From a bacterium (GTDB lineage Bacteria > Armatimonadota > Fimbriimonadia > Fimbriimonadales > Fimbriimonadaceae), in NCBI GenBank assembly GCA_027483535.1, contig JAIXUN010000002.1:1426001-1490000 (forward strand): a stretch of DNA of 64,000 nucleotides. The letters run 5' to 3'. The notes under the pieces are model-generated. The model worked only from the letters and a program-made list of their open reading frames with translations. It ran no database searches and had not been told where the DNA came from. Positions 19,154 to 63,491 of this stretch are shown in pieces (the first letter of the stretch is position 1; each line of letters opens with the position of its first letter). Position numbers and translations under genes: made by a program.

Positions 19154-19237
19154 GTTTTATTGGGCGGTCTGCAGACTCGGCTAAACGGTAGGGCTGAACC
19201 TTTGGGCAGCCTCTAGCGAAGGGTGGATAACGTTGGG

Positions 19238-19384
19238 TATAACTAACGATTGCGTGTCGGCACGTTCGCGTGTCGCTGCAGCGGCTTCTTAGCAATTGAG
19301 CCGAATGTCCCGTTCCCGAGCGAGGGCGACATTCTTTTTGACGGTTCGAATTGCGATTTAGAAGCTGCAATTTAGGAGGAATCA
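19238..19384 (+). promoter_or_regulatory. Structured leader of the ribosomal protein operon (attenuator candidate)
   Basis: A TATAAC box at 19238-19243 would give an about 135-base leader before rplC. GAATGTC (19303-19309) pairs with GACATTC (19328-19334) and is followed by five T, a terminator-like hairpin. An outer stem GCAATTGAGCC (19292-19302) pairs with GGTTC-G-AATTGC (about 19343-19354, one bulge). The same AATTGC can instead pair with GCAATT at 19367-19372, directly before the Shine-Dalgarno AGGAGG. Two copies of GCGTGTCG (19252 and 19268) precede all this. The mutually exclusive pairings suggest control of termination or translation; in E. coli the S10 leader is an L4-responsive attenuator. 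Confidence 0.5.
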
Positions 19385-20011
19385 ATGCTTCCAGGCATTC
19401 TCGGACGAAAAATAGGTATGACGCACCTCTTCACTGAAGAGGGCAAGATGGTGCCTGTAACCGTCGTGGAAGCGGGGCCGGTATTTGTCACCCAGATCAA
19501 AACGGATGACAACGACGGTTACACCGCAATCCAAGTCGGTTACGGAGAAATCTCTGACAAAAATTTGACGTTTCCCAAGCACGGCCACCTGAAGAAGGCG
19601 GGCGTAGGGAAGAACTTGCGCACTCTCAAAGAGTTCCGCGTTGATGCTGCTTCGGGCTTCGAGCTTGGGCAGGAGATCAATGTTGAGATCTTCGCTGAGG
19701 GTGAAGTTGTCACCGTTACGGGCAAGTCGAAGGGTCGCGGTTTCCAGGGTGGCGTTAAGCGCTATCACTTCCGCGGTCAGCACATGACCCACGGTTACAT
19801 GACCCACCGACGACCGCTCTCCAGTGGTGCGACGGGTCCGCAGCGTGTTTTCAAAGGTGTTCGAAAGCCGGGCCGAATGGGTAACGATCAAGTTACGCAG
19901 AAGGGTCTCAAGGTCGTTAAGGTCGATGTGGAGCGAAATCTTCTGCTCATCGACGGTAGCGTCCCCGGTCCTAACGGTGCACCCGTGATCATCAACAAGG
20001 TGAAAGGCTAA
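19385..20011 (+). CDS. rplC: 50S ribosomal protein L3
   Basis: 208 residues against 209 in E. coli. The N-terminus ILGRKIGMTHLF and the central KGRGFQGGVKRYHF-x-G-x-x-x-THG stretch are diagnostic of L3, an early assembly protein near the peptidyl transferase centre. It is the first gene of the cluster here: rpsJ (S10), which usually precedes it, is absent. A strong AGGAGGA lies 5 bases before the ATG, and a structured leader precedes it. Confidence 0.98.
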   Translation: MLPGILGRKIGMTHLFTEEGKMVPVTVVEAGPVFVTQIKTDDNDGYTAIQVGYGEISDKNLTFPKHGHLKKAGVGKNLRTLKEFRVDAASGFELGQEINVEIFAEGEVVTVTGKSKGRGFQGGVKRYHFRGQHMTHGYMTHRRPLSSGATGPQRVFKGVRKPGRMGNDQVTQKGLKVVKVDVERNLLLIDGSVPGPNGAPVIINKVKG

Positions 20012-20016
20012 GGGCG

Positions 20017-20676
20017 ATGGCATCTATCGAAATTAAAGGAAAAGACGGCAAGAAGGTCGGGACTCGCGATATTTCCGCGAAGCTCGCTGAGGCAGCCGCA
20101 TCGCACACAACGATTCACCGAACGGTTGTTGCTGAAGAAGCAAACAAGCGACAGGGTACGCAAAGCGCGAAGACCCGAAGCGAAGTTCGTGGTGGTGGTC
20201 GAAAGCCGTACAAGCAGAAGAAGACCGGTAACGCCCGACAAGGTTCTATCCGATCTCCTCACTACGCTCACGGCGGTATGGCGCTGGCAGTTAAGCCGCG
20301 CGACTACGAAAAGAAGGTCAACAAGCGCGAGCGACGAGCTTCTATCCTTACGGCATTGGCCGCTCATCTTGAGGCAGGCAACGTGTCGGTGGTAGACAGC
20401 ATCGCATTTGCAGCTCCGAAGACCAAGGATGCAACGGCTCTGCTGGCATCTCTGGGACTTGAGGGCGTGAAGCGCGTGCTGGTGATTCTTCCCGCACACG
20501 ACGAAGTGACGATGAAATCGTTCCGCAACCTTCCTAACGTAGAGGTTCGAACGGCTCCCAGTCGAGACGCTGAGGCAAAGACTCAGGCCTTCTCAACTCG
20601 AGACGTGCTCGTAGCTCACAAGTTGGTGGTTGCCAAAGAAGCTCTCGACAAGATCGAGGAGGTTTGGGCGCAGTGA
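20017..20676 (+). CDS. rplD: 50S ribosomal protein L4
   Basis: 219 residues, somewhat longer than E. coli L4 (201). The family hallmark QGTQSAKTRSEVRGGGRKPYKQKKTGNARQGS region forms the extended loop reaching the exit tunnel. L4 is also the repressor of the S10 operon in enterobacteria, which makes the structured leader upstream of rplC notable. The start follows rplC by five bases; the stop overlaps the rplW start. Confidence 0.98.
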   Translation: MASIEIKGKDGKKVGTRDISAKLAEAAASHTTIHRTVVAEEANKRQGTQSAKTRSEVRGGGRKPYKQKKTGNARQGSIRSPHYAHGGMALAVKPRDYEKKVNKRERRASILTALAAHLEAGNVSVVDSIAFAAPKTKDATALLASLGLEGVKRVLVILPAHDEVTMKSFRNLPNVEVRTAPSRDAEAKTQAFSTRDVLVAHKLVVAKEALDKIEEVWAQ

Positions 20677-21017
20677 AAAACCCGCACGACATTATCATCG
20701 CTCCGCACATCACCGAGAAGTCGGTGAAGTTGTCTTACGGAGATCCACAGATCAAGGACGAGAACGCAATCGTGCGAAAGTACACGTTCATCGTTGCTAA
20801 GAGCTCCAACAAGATTGAGATCAAGCGAGCGATCGAAGAGATCTACAACGATGGCAAGAAGAAGGGAGAGGGCATCGAGGTCACCTCCGTTCGAACCATC
20901 AAGGTTCTTGGTAGAGAGCGACGACGCGGTCAGAAGAGCACCGGTTACGAACCGGATCGCAAGAAGGCCGTGGTGACGCTTGCTAAAGGACAGCTCCTGG
21001 AGGATTACGGAGTCTAA
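20673..21017 (+). CDS. rplW: 50S ribosomal protein L23
   Basis: 114 residues from the GTG at 20673, whose GTGA overlaps the rplD stop and which has GAGGAGG about 10 bases upstream; a TTG nine bases earlier is the alternative. The N-terminal [11 protein letters not shown] is the L23 signature. L23 lines the polypeptide exit and docks trigger factor and SRP. The protein carries an about 12-residue insertion near residue 20-30 ([12 protein letters not shown]) compared with the E. coli form. Confidence 0.96.
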
Positions 21018-21019
21018 CC

Positions 21020-21853
21020 ATGGCAGTAAGAAAACTTAAGCCGACCTCTCCTGGCCGTCGCTTTATGGCGATTGCCTCCTACGAGGAAGTTACCAAAGGC
21101 AAACCAGAAAAGAGCCTAACTCGCAAGCTGACGAAGTCCGGTGGTCGAAACCACTTTGGTCGCATGACGATGGCGAACCGTGGCGGCGGTAACAAGCGAC
21201 GCTACCGAGTCATCGACTTCAAGCGACAAAAGGACGGAGTTGAGGCAAAGGTCGCCGCGATCGAATACGATCCGAACCGAACTTGCCGAATCGCGTTGCT
21301 CCACTACATGGACGGCGAGAAGCGATACATCTTGGCTCCGAAGAATCTGGAAGTTGGTCGACGCGTGGAGAGCGGTCCTGCGGCAGACATTCTGCCCGGC
21401 AACGCCCTTCCGTTGAAGAACATCCCGCTCGGTACGCTGGTCCACAACGTGGAGCTGCAACCCGGAAAGGGTGGCCAAATGGTCCGATCCGCAGGCGCTT
21501 CCGCACAGGTGATGGCGAAGGAGGGTAACTACGTGACCCTTCGACTCCCGTCTGGTGAAATGCGCATGGTGCACAACACCTGCCGAGCAACCGTTGGCGA
21601 GGTCGGAAACTCCGATCACGAGAACGAGTCGCTAGGTAAGGCCGGTAAGGCCCGAAATCTTGGACGAAAGCCGCACGTGCGCGGTGTCGTTAAATCGCCT
21701 CGCGACCACCCACACGGTGGTGGTGAAGCCAAGTCACCAGTCGGACGTAAGAAAGGTCCGGTCGACCGATGGGGCAACAAGGCTCTCGGTGAAAAGACGC
21801 GAAGCAACAAGCGGACCGATCGATTCATCGTTCGCCGACGAAAAGGTAAGTAA
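21020..21853 (+). CDS. rplB: 50S ribosomal protein L2
   Basis: 277 residues, near the E. coli 273. The [13 protein letters not shown] and C-terminal [19 protein letters not shown] motifs are those of L2, whose conserved histidine region lies at the peptidyl transferase centre. ATG two bases after rplW. By hand count about 18 of roughly 32 arginines use CGA, which is unusual for such a highly expressed gene. A 110-base gap with two hairpins follows. Confidence 0.98.
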
Positions 21854-21859
21854 ATCTCA

Positions 21860-21916
21860 TTGCCCGATCGTGTTCTGGTAAAGCCATTACGCGGTCGGGC
21901 AAGGCAGTGCACTGCC
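21860..21916 (+). promoter_or_regulatory. Two hairpins between rplB and rpsS
   Basis: TTGCCCGATCGTGT (21860-21873) pairs with ACGCGGTCGGGCAA (21889-21902) in a 14-bp stem with three G-T pairs; it is followed at once by the perfect palindrome GGCAGTGCACTGCC (21903-21916). No T-run follows, so a simple terminator is unlikely; RNA processing, protection or a regulatory protein site are options. Confidence 0.6.
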
Positions 21917-21963
21917 CACTCCAAAACGAGAGTTCGGGGTGAAGGTCAACACAGGAAACACGA

Positions 21964-22251
21964 ATGGGAAGAAGTCTTAAAAAAGGGTTCTTCGTTGACG
22001 ACCACCTTCTGAAGAAAGTGGACGCTCTCAACGACAAGAACGAAAAGAAACTCATCAAAACATGGAGCCGGCGATCGACGATCATTCCTGACATGATCGG
22101 CCACACCATCGCTGTCCACGACGGGCGCAAGCACGTTCCGGTCTTCGTTACCGAGAACATGGTTGGGCACAAGCTGGGAGAATTTGCCCCCACGCGAACC
22201 TACCGAGGTCACGCAGGCGGTCTTCCAGAGCGAGGAGCGCGACTCCGCTAA
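21964..22251 (+). CDS. rpsS: 30S ribosomal protein S19
   Basis: 95 residues. [12 protein letters not shown] at the N-terminus and the [27 protein letters not shown] core are diagnostic. S19 sits in the head of the 30S subunit with S13. Start ATG with a weak upstream AGGAAA; it follows the two-hairpin gap after rplB. Confidence 0.98.
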
Positions 22252-22260
22252 GAGGGAACT

Positions 22261-22806
22261 ATGGAAGTAAAAGCAATTACCAAATACGTCCGAGTTCAGC
22301 CTCGAAAGGTGCGGATCGTTGCGGATGAAGTTCGCGGTATGACCGCAATCTCCGCGGCTCACAAGCTTCGATTTCACAAGAGCAAGGGAGCCCAAATGCT
22401 CCGCAAGACTCTGATTTCTGCGATGGCAAACGCTTCGGAGAATTTCAACCTTGCACCAGAGGCTCTTAAGATCGCTGCTATCACCATTGACGAGGGTCCT
22501 CGCTTGAAGCGGATGCAAGCCCGAGCAATGGGCCGAGGCAACCGAATCCTTAAGAAGACCAGCCACATCACCGTGGTTGTTGAGGATGTCGAGCCGACAG
22601 CAGTTGTCAAGCCGCACGGAACGAAGGCTAAGCCTCGACCGACTCTTGCGGTAAAGGGCAAGAAGCCAGCTAAGAAGGATGCTCCGGTTGAAGCCCCTGT
22701 GGAAGCCGCTGCGCCTGTAGTCGAAGAGACCGTTGAGGAAACCAACGTCGCGGAGACAACGACCGATGCAGAGGCAGGAACCTCTGAAGAAAAGGTGGAG
22801 AACTAA
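22261..22806 (+). CDS. rplV: 50S ribosomal protein L22 with a long C-terminal extension
   Basis: 181 residues, about 65 longer than the usual 110-118. The first 118 residues are a normal L22 (KYVRVQPRKVRIVADEVRG, KRMQARAMGRGNRILKKTSHITVVV), including the beta-hairpin that reaches the exit tunnel. The extension starts lysine and proline rich and becomes acidic with Ala, Val, Thr and Glu; it is predicted to be disordered. Its ATG is nine bases after rpsS and its stop overlaps the rpsC ATG. Confidence 0.97.
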   Translation: MEVKAITKYVRVQPRKVRIVADEVRGMTAISAAHKLRFHKSKGAQMLRKTLISAMANASENFNLAPEALKIAAITIDEGPRLKRMQARAMGRGNRILKKTSHITVVVEDVEPTAVVKPHGTKAKPRPTLAVKGKKPAKKDAPVEAPVEAAAPVVEETVEETNVAETTTDAEAGTSEEKVEN

Positions 22807-23624
22807 TGGGTCAGAAGATTCACCCAGTCGGCCTGCGTATCGGCGTCATCCGAGGTCACGACAGCCACTGGTTTTACAAGAAGAAAGGCTACGCGAAGGC
22901 GATCGTCATCGACGATCGAATCCGCAAGCACATCAAGCGAAAGGTCGGCCTGGGTAGCGTTTCCCGTGTCGAGATCGAGCGCGCGGCAAACCGACTGAAG
23001 GTCAACATCTTCACGGCTCGCCCGGGTGCGATCATCGGACAGAAAGGTAAGGGTATCGACGCGCTTACGCAGCACCTGAACCGAATGGTTCGAGAAGAGG
23101 ACCCGACGATGGGCGTTCAAGTGAACGTTACCGAAGTTCGGCAACCCGAACTCGACGCTCAGATTGTTGCCGAGAACGTTTGCGCGCAGCTTGAAAAGCG
23201 GATCAGCCACCGACGGGCCATGCGACAAGCAATGACTCGTGTTGTCCGACTGAACGGTCGCGGCATCAAGATCCAGGTCTCTGGTCGATTGAACGGTGCA
23301 GAAATTGCACGACGCGAGGGCGATATGATGGGCAAGGTTCCGTTGCACACCCTCCGAGCTGATATCGATTACGGCTTTGCTGAAGCCCGAACCATTTACG
23401 GATCGGTCGGATGTAAGGTTTGGATCTACAAGGGCGAAGTTCTTCCGGAGAAGCGACTGCGAGAGATGGATGCAGTGATGCAAGCTCAGCAGGAGCGACG
23501 ACGTGAGGATCGACCCGAGCGACGTGACCGACGAGATCGAGGCGATCGTGGAGATCGCGGAGATCGAGCGTTTGCAAGCACTCGAACGGATGCTCCCGCC
23601 GAAAACCAGGGAGGTAACAGCTAA
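22806..23624 (+). CDS. rpsC: 30S ribosomal protein S3 with an Arg/Asp-rich C-terminal tail
   Basis: 272 residues against 233 in E. coli. The N-terminal [19 protein letters not shown], the KH motif [20 protein letters not shown] and the C-terminal domain [13 protein letters not shown] are typical. S3 forms the mRNA entry with S4 and S5. From about residue 225 a charged tail begins, with repeated RRDRG and GDRGDR units, ending in a small polar segment. The tail is encoded by near-repeats of a nine-base GATCGnGGn unit. Overlaps rplV by one base and rplP by one base. Confidence 0.97.
23533..23570 (+). repeat. Nine-base near-repeats in the rpsC tail
   Basis: Four successive units beginning GATCG (GATCGAGGC, GATCGTGGA, GATCGCGGA, GATCGAGCG) encode the [12 protein letters not shown] stretch of the S3 tail. 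The units differ only at third codon positions or the last residue, pointing to recent duplication. Confidence 0.6.
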
Positions 23625-24124
23625 TGTTGATGCCTAAGCGAGTTAAGGAAGGCCGCCGCAAAATGATGCGGGGTCGGATGAAGGGCAAGTCGACGCAAGG
23701 CAACAAGGTGTCCTTTGGCGAATACGCCATCGTGGCCCAAGAGCCGGCGTGGATCACTTCGCGACAAATCGAGTCCGCACGTATTGCGATGACTCGACAC
23801 ATCAAGCGTGGTGGAAAGGTCTGGATTCGAATCTTCCCGCACAAGTCGTACACGAAGAAGCCGCTTGAAACCCGTATGGGTAAGGGTAAGGCGGGCGTTG
23901 AAGGATGGGTAGCCGTCGTCAAGCCCGGTCGCGTTCTGTTCGAAATGGACGGAGTCAACGTGGACCTGGCAAAGGAAGCGATGCGCCTTGCCATCTTCAA
24001 ACTGCCGATGCGCTGTAAGTTCTACACCAAGGCTGACTTGGCCAAGGAACTCGCAGATGCAGAGAATGCCGCCCTCGAAGCAGCCGCCGCAAAGAAGGCC
24101 GCCGCAGAGGCGAGTGCCGAGTAA
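23624..24124 (+). CDS. rplP: 50S ribosomal protein L16 with an alanine-rich extension
   Basis: 166 residues against 136 in E. coli. [21 protein letters not shown] is the usual N-terminus and supports the ATG at 23624. [23 protein letters not shown] and [19 protein letters not shown] follow. L16 helps tRNA accommodation in the A site. The last about 28 residues ([23 protein letters not shown] region) are an Ala/Glu/Lys helix-prone extension. TAATG overlap with rpsC. Confidence 0.98.
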
Positions 24125-24136
24125 GGAGCCTGACGA

Positions 24137-24343
24137 ATGAAAGATATGAAAGCTACGGAACTACGCGAGAAGTCGGTGCCCGAACTCGAAGCGATGATTC
24201 GCGAAGAGAAGGCGGCGCTGTTCAAAGCGCGACGAGACCTAGTGTTCCGCCAATCTGCGGATACCACCGGGTTGAAGACGCGACGACACAATATCGCGCG
24301 AATTCTTACGGTCATCACCGAGAAGCAGCGAGGTAACAGCTAA
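24137..24343 (+). CDS. rpmC: 50S ribosomal protein L29
   Basis: 68 residues. The [22 protein letters not shown] and [13 protein letters not shown] segments are the two helices of L29, which sits beside L23 at the tunnel exit. ATG is 12 bases after rplP with AGGAG upstream; the stop shares TAATG with rpsQ. Confidence 0.96.
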
Positions 24344-24600
24344 TGGCGGAAGCAAGAAACACACGAAAGGTTCGAGAAGGCGTTGTCGTCTCGAACAAGA
24401 TGGAAAAGACCGTCGTGGTCCGAACCGTCCGACGAATCAAGCACCCGCTGTACGGCAAGGTTGTTATTCGCTCGGAGAAGTTCAAGGCACACGATGAGAT
24501 CGGATGCGACATTGGAGACACCGTAGAGATCATGGAGACTCGACCCATCAGCCGCGATAAGCGCTGGCGCGTCACCCAGATCATCGAAAAGGTCAAGTAA
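24343..24600 (+). CDS. rpsQ: 30S ribosomal protein S17
   Basis: 85 residues. [27 protein letters not shown] and the [23 protein letters not shown] stretch are typical of this OB-fold protein that binds 16S rRNA. It is the last gene of the S10-type part; an 87-base gap with three hairpins separates it from rplN, the position where the E. coli S10 and spc operons meet. Confidence 0.98.
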
Positions 24601-24606
24601 CAACCC

Positions 24607-24679
24607 GTCTCCTCGGAGTGACTCTGAGGAGACTATTCATGCCCACCCTGACCCTGGTCAGGACGGCCTCTGAAAGAGG
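24607..24679 (+). promoter_or_regulatory. Three stacked hairpins between rpsQ and rplN
   Basis: GTCTCCTC (24607-24614) pairs with GAGGAGAC (24626-24633), extended inside to 12 bp with a 3-base loop. CCTGACC (24647-24653) pairs with GGTCAGG (24656-24662). CCTCT (24667-24671) pairs with AGAGG (24675-24679), which is the only Shine-Dalgarno-like sequence before the rplN ATG at 24688. The third hairpin could hide the ribosome binding site. No T-run is present. Confidence 0.6.
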
Positions 24680-24687
24680 AAACAGAA

Positions 24688-25059
24688 ATGATTCAACAAT
24701 TCAGCAGACTGAAGGTGGCGGATAACTCCGGCGCACGGACGGTGATGTGTATCCGAGTTCTCAAAGGATCGCAGCCCCGGTACGGTCGCGTGGGTGACGT
24801 TATCGTCGCTTCCGTGAAATCGGCTAGCCCGAACATGCCCGTTAAGAAGGGCGACGTTATCAAGGCGGTTATCGTCCGAACCACACGTCCGGTTCGACGA
24901 CAAGATGGCAGCACGCTCAAGTTCGATGAGAACGCATGCGTCGTCATCAACCCCAACAACATGGAGCCGCGAGGAACCCGAATTTTCGGACCGGTAGCTC
25001 GTGAATTGCGAGATGCGAACTTCATGAAGATCGTATCCCTGGCTCCGGAGGTGCTTTAA
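24688..25059 (+). CDS. rplN: 50S ribosomal protein L14
   Basis: 123 residues, identical in length to E. coli. [25 protein letters not shown] and the [13 protein letters not shown] and [16 protein letters not shown]-type segments are diagnostic. L14 binds 23S rRNA and forms bridges with the 30S subunit. First gene of the spc-type part; the start may be covered by a small hairpin. Confidence 0.98.
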
Positions 25060-25062
25060 TCC

Positions 25063-25476
25063 ATGCCTACCAAAGCAGAAATCAAACGACTGAGCAAGCC
25101 GATCAAGGTTAAGATCCGCAAGGGCGATAAGGTCCGGATCATTGCCGGAAAGGACAAAGGCCAAGAGGGCTTCGTCGCGGCTGTCAGTGCGAAGGAAGGC
25201 AAGGTCATTATTCTCAAGGACAACCCAGAGAATCCTGAGCAACCGCTTCCTTTGAACGTCGTCGTTAAGCACCGAAAGGCTCGAACGCAAGGTGAGCGAT
25301 CCGCACGGATCATGATCCCGGCTCCGATCCACATCAGCAACGTGATGGTGCTCGATCCTAAGACGGGTGAGCCTACGCGAGTAGGTAAGAAGATCGTCGA
25401 TGGCAAGAAAGTCCGCTTCGCAAAGAAGAGTGGACAAGTCATCGTCGAAGTTCCGATCACTTCCGACAACAAGTAA
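25063..25476 (+). CDS. rplX: 50S ribosomal protein L24
   Basis: 137 residues, longer than the usual about 104. The KOW motif is clear (KIRKGDKVRIIAGKDKGQEG), followed by NVVVKHRKA. Two inserts explain the length: an about 17-residue KTGEPTRVGKKIVDGKK region near the C-terminus and a longer N-terminal helix. L24 initiates 50S assembly. Three bases after rplN; a 72-base gap with two hairpins follows. Confidence 0.96.
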   Translation: MPTKAEIKRLSKPIKVKIRKGDKVRIIAGKDKGQEGFVAAVSAKEGKVIILKDNPENPEQPLPLNVVVKHRKARTQGERSARIMIPAPIHISNVMVLDPKTGEPTRVGKKIVDGKKVRFAKKSGQVIVEVPITSDNK

Positions 25477-25482
25477 TTCCGT

Positions 25483-25538
25483 TTCCCTCTAGCCCCAGCA
25501 AGAGGGAAGCAACGATAGCGCCTGGTCAGCAATCAGGC
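25483..25538 (+). promoter_or_regulatory. Two hairpins between rplX and rplE
   Basis: TTCCCTCT (25483-25490) pairs with AGAGGGAA (25501-25508) and GCCTGGT (25520-25526) with ATCAGGC (25532-25538, one G-T pair). The pair lies in the third long gap of the cluster and again lacks a T-run. The rplE ATG is 11 bases downstream. Confidence 0.6.
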
Positions 25539-25548
25539 AACCGAGAAA

Positions 25549-26148
25549 ATGGCTAAAAAAGACAAAACATCCGCACCGGCAGGACCGACGGTTAACATTC
25601 AACCGCGTCTCAAAGAGAAGTACAGCAAAGAAGTTGCGCCCAAGCTGAAAGAGCAGTTCGGCTACAAGTCGGTGATGCAAATCCCGAAGCTTGAGAAGAT
25701 CGTGATCAACATGGGCACGGGTACGACCGACAAAGAGCCCAAGCACTTGGACAACTCTCTTCGAGACCTCACGCTCATCGCGGGTCAAAAGCCGATCACC
25801 ACGGTAGCAAAAACCGCTATCTCTAACTTTAAGGTTCGAGAGGGCATGAAGATCGGATGTAAGGTCACCCTTCGCGGAGACCGAATGTACCACTTCTTCG
25901 ACAAGCTCGCGACGGTAGTTCTCCCCCGTATTCGAGACTTCCAAGGTCTTAATCCGAACTCCTTTGACGGTCGAGGCAACTACGCCATCGGTCTCAAAGA
26001 GCAGCTGATTTTCCCGGAGATCCCTTACGATACGTTCGACCGAATTCGCGGTATGGACGTGGTGTTCGTCACCACTGCCAAAACCGACGATGAGGCACGT
26101 GTGTTCTTGAAGGCGATGGGTCTCCCCATCCGCGAGAAGCAAGGTTAA
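25549..26148 (+). CDS. rplE: 50S ribosomal protein L5
   Basis: 199 residues against 179 in E. coli; the extra residues are an N-terminal basic and Ala/Pro arm ([17 protein letters not shown]). The core shows [34 protein letters not shown] and [18 protein letters not shown]5 binds 5S rRNA and contacts P-site tRNA. It is the last ribosomal gene here: rpsN, rpsH, rplF and the rest of the spc operon do not follow, and a terminator comes directly after. Confidence 0.97.
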
Positions 26149-60334: not shown

Positions 60335-60360
60335 ATCGAGCACTCAATAAGAGCTGCGTA

Positions 60361-63303
<2,943 letters not shown>

Positions 63304-63325
63304 AAGCTTTTATTAAGTGTAAGAC

Positions 63326-63354
63326 GCGCTAGAATCTTTGTACGGTTTTCAAAG
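63326..63354 (+). other. 3' strand of the 23S processing stalk
   Basis: Complement of 60306-60334, ending GGTTTTCAAAG; the long helix encloses the 23S rRNA and is the expected substrate for RNase III. It lies 23 bases after the 23S 3' end and before the 5S gene. Confidence 0.8.
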
Positions 63355-63370
63355 GGCTAAGCCCTTCGAT

Positions 63371-63491
<121 letters not shown>

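Follow-up and report, generated by a model that had tools for sequence, protein, structure and literature searches.

Introduction

How is a large operon of the S10 type controlled when it opens with rplC? Feedback on such operons is understood mainly in Escherichia coli and its relatives, and rpsJ is the head gene of the corresponding operon in E. coli. The locus considered here lies in a Fimbriimonadaceae genome of the phylum Armatimonadota, and the nearest named relatives of its rplC are from Fimbriimonadaceae and Armatimonadetes MAGs. The analysis covered a 64 kb stretch of DNA, referred to below as the window, and rpsJ of this genome sits 71 kb from the rplC element. The genes concerned are the following.

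19374..19379, + strand: ribosome binding site AGGAGG of rplC, from the sequence
19385..20011, + strand: rplC (ribosomal protein L3), which opens the operon, an open reading frame with its ATG at 19385
20017..26148, + strand: rplD, rplW, rplB, rpsS, rplV, rpsC, rplP, rpmC, rpsQ, rplN, rplX and rplE, tandem open reading frames named by recognising their translations

The genes from rplD to rplE are presumably controlled by the same leader as rplC and are probably co-transcribed with it. This leader of the rplC-rplD-rplW-rplB... operon contains a conserved RNA structure at 19281-19368, whose helices P1, P2 and P3 covary among relatives and whose place is exclusively before rplC. The reading that we favour, at a probability of roughly 0.72, is that it represents a new family of autoregulatory ribosomal-protein leader in the Fimbriimonadales, acting mainly on translation and responding, by precedent, most likely to L4, or else to L3 or another protein.

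Architecture of the rplC leader

In the best predicted fold the leader forms one long interrupted hairpin, P1-P2-P3, which stops just short of AGGAGG. Its parts and the sequences in front of it are listed below.

19235..19243, + strand: probable -10 box GGGTATAAC (TATAAC at 19238-19243), from the sequence
19251..19280, + strand: P0, 5'-terminal hairpin just before the element, from the predicted fold
19281..19289, + strand: 5' strand of P1 (GCGGCTTCT), predicted to pair with 19360-19368
19292..19302, + strand: 5' strand of P2 (GCAATTGAGCC), pairing with 19343-19354, with one bulged G at 19348
19303..19311, + strand: 5' strand of the P3 core (GAATG-T-CCC), consensus NNCG-[A/C]-CCC
19303-19309/19328-19334, + strand: P3 hairpin GAATGTC...GACATTC, followed by TTTTT at 19335-19339
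19324..19334, + strand: 3' strand of the P3 core (GGG-CGA-CATTC), consensus GGG-CAA-CGNN
19335..19342, + strand: P3-P2 joint TTTTTGAC, which contains the T-run and is not conserved
19343..19354, + strand: 3' strand of P2 (GGTTCGAATTGC), pairing with 19292-19302
19360..19368, + strand: 3' strand of P1 (AGAAGCTGC), with its end 5 nt ahead of AGGAGG

The initial annotation had described an outer stem between GCAATTGAGCC and GGTTCGAATTGC. This stem is present where it had been placed and corresponds to P2, one of the strongly covarying helices. The outermost stem, P1, had been overlooked. It contains GCTTC/GAAGC, is the most conserved stem of the element and has a predicted pair probability of about 1.0.

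Transcription is expected to start at about 19249-19251. A start upstream of the element is likely because of the -10 box at 19238-19243 and because roughly half of the relatives have similar boxes (GGGTATAA-like, of the GGGTA(T/C) type) at 26-67 nt upstream of P1. These boxes are absent from the relatives that have rpsJ directly upstream. A generic sigma-70 scan returned no full promoter. At the position of P0, hairpins of differing sequence were seen by eye in members of the genus with their own promoter, and such hairpins perhaps protect the 5' end.

Conservation and covariation

The rplC upstream regions of 48 other genomes of the order were read. A common pattern is made of GCTTC, a variable arm, the core strand NNCG-A-CCC, a variable loop, the core strand GGG-CAA-CGNN, a second variable arm, GAAGC and the ribosome binding site. 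This pattern is present in nearly all of the family and in most of one sister family. Among 71 leaders, P1 occurs as GCTTC/GAAGC (47), GCCTC/GAGGC (9), GTTTC/GAAAC (2) and GATTC/GAATC (1), while the sequence of P2 differs in almost every species and stays paired nonetheless. In P3, the CCC/GGG stem is kept in 69 of the 71; the 3' motif reads CAA in 55 and CGA in six, and the outer pairs covary. The member in the window has diverged: it carries CGA in place of CAA, and beside the loop TG/CA replaces CG/CG, as in some other family members.

Covariation was measured by a partner-swap test, in which arms are exchanged between species and which gives a result independent of the alignment of P2. Across 34 leaders, cognate arms paired far better than swapped ones (z -11.1 for P2, -7.4 for P1 and -7.5 for P3a). 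In the same way, P2 stood well apart from composition-preserving shuffles (Stouffer -11.6), the window's own P2 lying 4.6 sd below them. A hand-made structural alignment of 14 leaders had 97% of its cells paired vs 72% after shuffling, a comparison in which hand fitting favours the structure. In 35 model-aligned leaders, most of them not used in model building and one of them a chance match (L136), 91.9% of cells were paired vs 70% when shuffled and at most 44% when slid, and 19 of 24 pairs had changed on both sides. The structured leader put forward in the initial annotation is therefore borne out, its base pairs being kept and covarying in relatives.

One may ask whether an intergenic spacer could fold in this way by chance. 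The folding energy of 19238-19384, taken as a single sequence, is only moderately below that of dinucleotide shuffles (z -2.2), which would fit such a view. It is refuted by the covariation of the helices, since three helices show compensatory changes, the element being in an unchanging position across over 60 genomes, and it retains practically no credence.

Proposed switches within the leader

A terminator-like hairpin had been noted ahead of rplC. P3 followed by TTTTT is indeed present as placed, and this T-run is peculiar to the window genome: it is absent at the corresponding place in the other leaders compared, where the P3-P2 joint consists of unrelated sequence or, in some members of the genus, of an extra hairpin, P4. 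Transcription attenuation of the E. coli S10 type, in which L4 would stabilise a terminator hairpin of the leader, was proposed on this ground and has a precedent in E. coli itself (PMC10931766). The five T after P3 in the window speak for it, and a terminator scan found one weak site, a count at chance level (0.6 expected). Besides the relatives without a T-run, the conserved P1 and P2 argue against an attenuator, as they enclose P3 and would hold it within a closed element. Given that no T-run is conserved, the family appears to have no intrinsic terminator, the attenuation claim is not supported, and such a mechanism is quite improbable.

A translational switch had also been suggested, by which AATTGC at 19349-19354 would leave P2 and pair with GCAATT at 19367-19372. 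The complementarity is real, with six perfectly matching bases next to the ribosome binding site. The switch drawn from it is energetically poor and not conserved: the best fold is favoured by 12.2 kcal/mol over the alternative pairing, whose predicted probability is 0.0, and across 34 leaders the cognate segments paired no better than swapped (z +0.2) or shuffled ones (Stouffer +0.4). We regard this switch as very improbable, even more so than attenuation. Another pairing, between GAAGC of the P1 3' strand and GCTTC at the start codon (ATGCTTCC), was seen in the window and rejected, being lost where P1 is GCCTC/GAGGC.

Distribution of the element

A covariance model (R1) was built from 14 leaders of relatives, the window sequence being left out. 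It recovered the window element as the single match in the 64 kb, at 19282-19367 on the + strand (24.3 bits, E 0.0022). With the family model R2, 37 of 113 genomes of the class were matched at E<=0.01, never more than once per genome, and all 37 matches lie directly upstream of rplC (30 loci checked by tblastn, seven by coordinates); rplC itself was matched in 105 of the 113. Weaker members were found by a targeted search of further rplC upstream regions, and one (L153) by eye, so that the element is carried by more than 60 genomes once divergent members are counted. The R2 search of the window genome (G000) reported nothing, its first pass having scored 150 of 1306 candidates. A plain core pattern matches once in this genome, at the leader; the reversed control also matches once, so the count is not significant alone.

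No element was seen in family f2, either in the three loci read or by the class-wide search, nor was one found in L045 (family f4) or in L038 and L041, two of the eight f5 genomes. In these cases, where rplC has no recognisable element, it has apparently been lost or has diverged. When 291 genomes of the phylum were searched, a single additional weak match appeared, in G238, outside the order (E 0.013). This match was dismissed as chance, no rplC-rplB homologue being present in the surrounding 4.2 kb.

Four members of the same genus (L008, L009, L016, L021), as well as the sister families f5 and f3, have rpsJ directly upstream of the element. The element thus stands between rpsJ and rplC; it therefore belongs to the part of the cluster that begins with rplC, which is also the part that it would control, if any. 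The genus includes species that have retained rpsJ directly in front of the element as well as species whose rplC has a promoter of its own. Such congeners provide a natural comparison for the splitting of the operon.

Comparison with known leaders

The S10 leader of E. coli, located before rpsJ, is regulated by L4 through both attenuation and translation, and its Rho-independent terminator works with NusA (PMC10931766). The present element resembles it in being structured and in preceding an operon that includes rplC, rplD, rplW and rplB among others, possibly with L4 feedback. It differs in standing before rplC, even where rpsJ is directly upstream, and in having no conserved terminator, and it is consequently not an E. 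coli-type S10/L4 leader, which precedes rpsJ as first gene. The same gene position is occupied by the predicted L4 r-leader of Archaeoglobi (Eckert and Weinberg 2020), upstream of rplC, rplD, rplW and rplB, which its authors rated as borderline and whose ligand was assigned by precedent only (PMC7247131). That motif is archaeal, and it was compared by its description. The Firmicutes S10 r-leader and the Peptostreptococcaceae rpsJ motif belong to the S10/rpsJ 5'-UTR (PMC7247131; PMC11109978); they concern the same gene cluster in other phyla, and their Rfam families do not match the element.

Rfam 15 gave no match at the gathering score, whether for the window leader or for about 40 loci searched. 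A survey of 20 new r-leaders has none in Armatimonadota, and only the archaeal L4 motif in it precedes rplC (PMC7247131). The main text of a 50-genome survey mentions neither Armatimonadota nor rplC (PMC11109978). The element does show the general traits of r-leaders, namely a structured RNA in the 5' UTR, found consistently upstream of a ribosomal-protein gene, with a structure supported by covariation. Judged from its sequence and placement, we call it a probable new ribosomal-protein leader with its own structure within this known kind, new because of the lack of an Rfam 15 match and of any Armatimonadota example in the r-leader survey.

Even within the gamma-proteobacteria, conservation of the E. 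coli S10 site is limited (PMC10931766). A well-supported, compact leader from another phylum would represent a second, independent solution to the feedback of S10-type operons. It also offers a defined RNA for finding out which ribosomal protein acts as sensor. In addition, it represents an RNA family that Rfam lacks and marks a regulatory site in more than 60 genomes.

Possible mechanism and ligand

The ligand being a protein, the effect being repression and the level being translation are suggestions based on the position of the element and on known ribosomal leaders. Transcription would start just downstream of 19243, and P1-P2-P3 would form in the nascent RNA immediately ahead of the ribosome binding site of rplC. 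The conserved core, that is the CCC/GGG stem with its A/CAA internal loop, could then be bound by one of the operon's own ribosomal proteins in its free form, by precedent most likely L4, otherwise L3 or another. Binding would lock P1 and keep ribosomes off rplC, and the translationally coupled genes behind it would be repressed too.

The spacing to the start codon agrees with this scheme in most of the leaders. In 40 of the 66 leaders measured, the start codon is at most 24 nt after P1; in 20 it is more than 44 nt downstream, and blocking of the binding site is therefore not a general explanation. The long-spacer members may need another step, such as a second hairpin, an effect on stability or ribosome trapping.

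About a third of the members have a further 45-130 nt with another hairpin between the element and the start codon (long-spacer loci L013, L015, L018, L022, L024, L028, L034, L103 and L128), and these often carry GGGTGC or TGCCC just before the binding site. The extra hairpin is possibly a second regulatory step, and TGCCC could conceivably pair with GGGCA of the core. This pairing is weak and post hoc, TGCCC being found in five of 20 long-spacer members (p about 0.01, among related sequences).

The variable distance to the start codon would also suit a conserved mRNA element that has no ribosomal-protein ligand and serves stability or processing, binds another protein (e.g. a DEAD-box helicase or an RNase) or senses growth rate through another ligand, and the protein ligand of the leader is indeed putative. 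Ribosomal-protein leaders are usually recognised by their exclusive association with a ribosomal-protein operon, and this association, together with the near contact with the binding site in the 40 short-spacer members, makes an element of that sort unlikely.

For the autoregulatory leader, L4 is our best guess as ligand, by analogy with its known role as regulator of the cluster in E. coli, and L3, product of the operon's first gene, is a candidate. It is possible, if rather doubtful, that the leader belongs to a new structural family whose ligand is not L4 but L3, or a different protein without a known role in regulating its own operon in bacteria. Such a ligand would recognise an A/CAA internal loop that resembles rRNA and lies within a GC-rich helix. 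A model search of the genome's own 23S and 16S rRNA gave no credible match, and a short-motif search of its 23S, which is without GGGCAACG, gave nothing credible either. GGG-CAA loosely resembles the GGG-UAA that adjoins helix 20, in the L4-binding region, and this resemblance was not counted as evidence.

As a side observation, the window holds a 23S-5S pair at 60360-63489 without an adjoining 16S gene. For 16S, the genome has a single match, which lies on a different contig from this pair (G000:C4:90597-92105, L156), so that the rRNA genes of this genome appear to be split.
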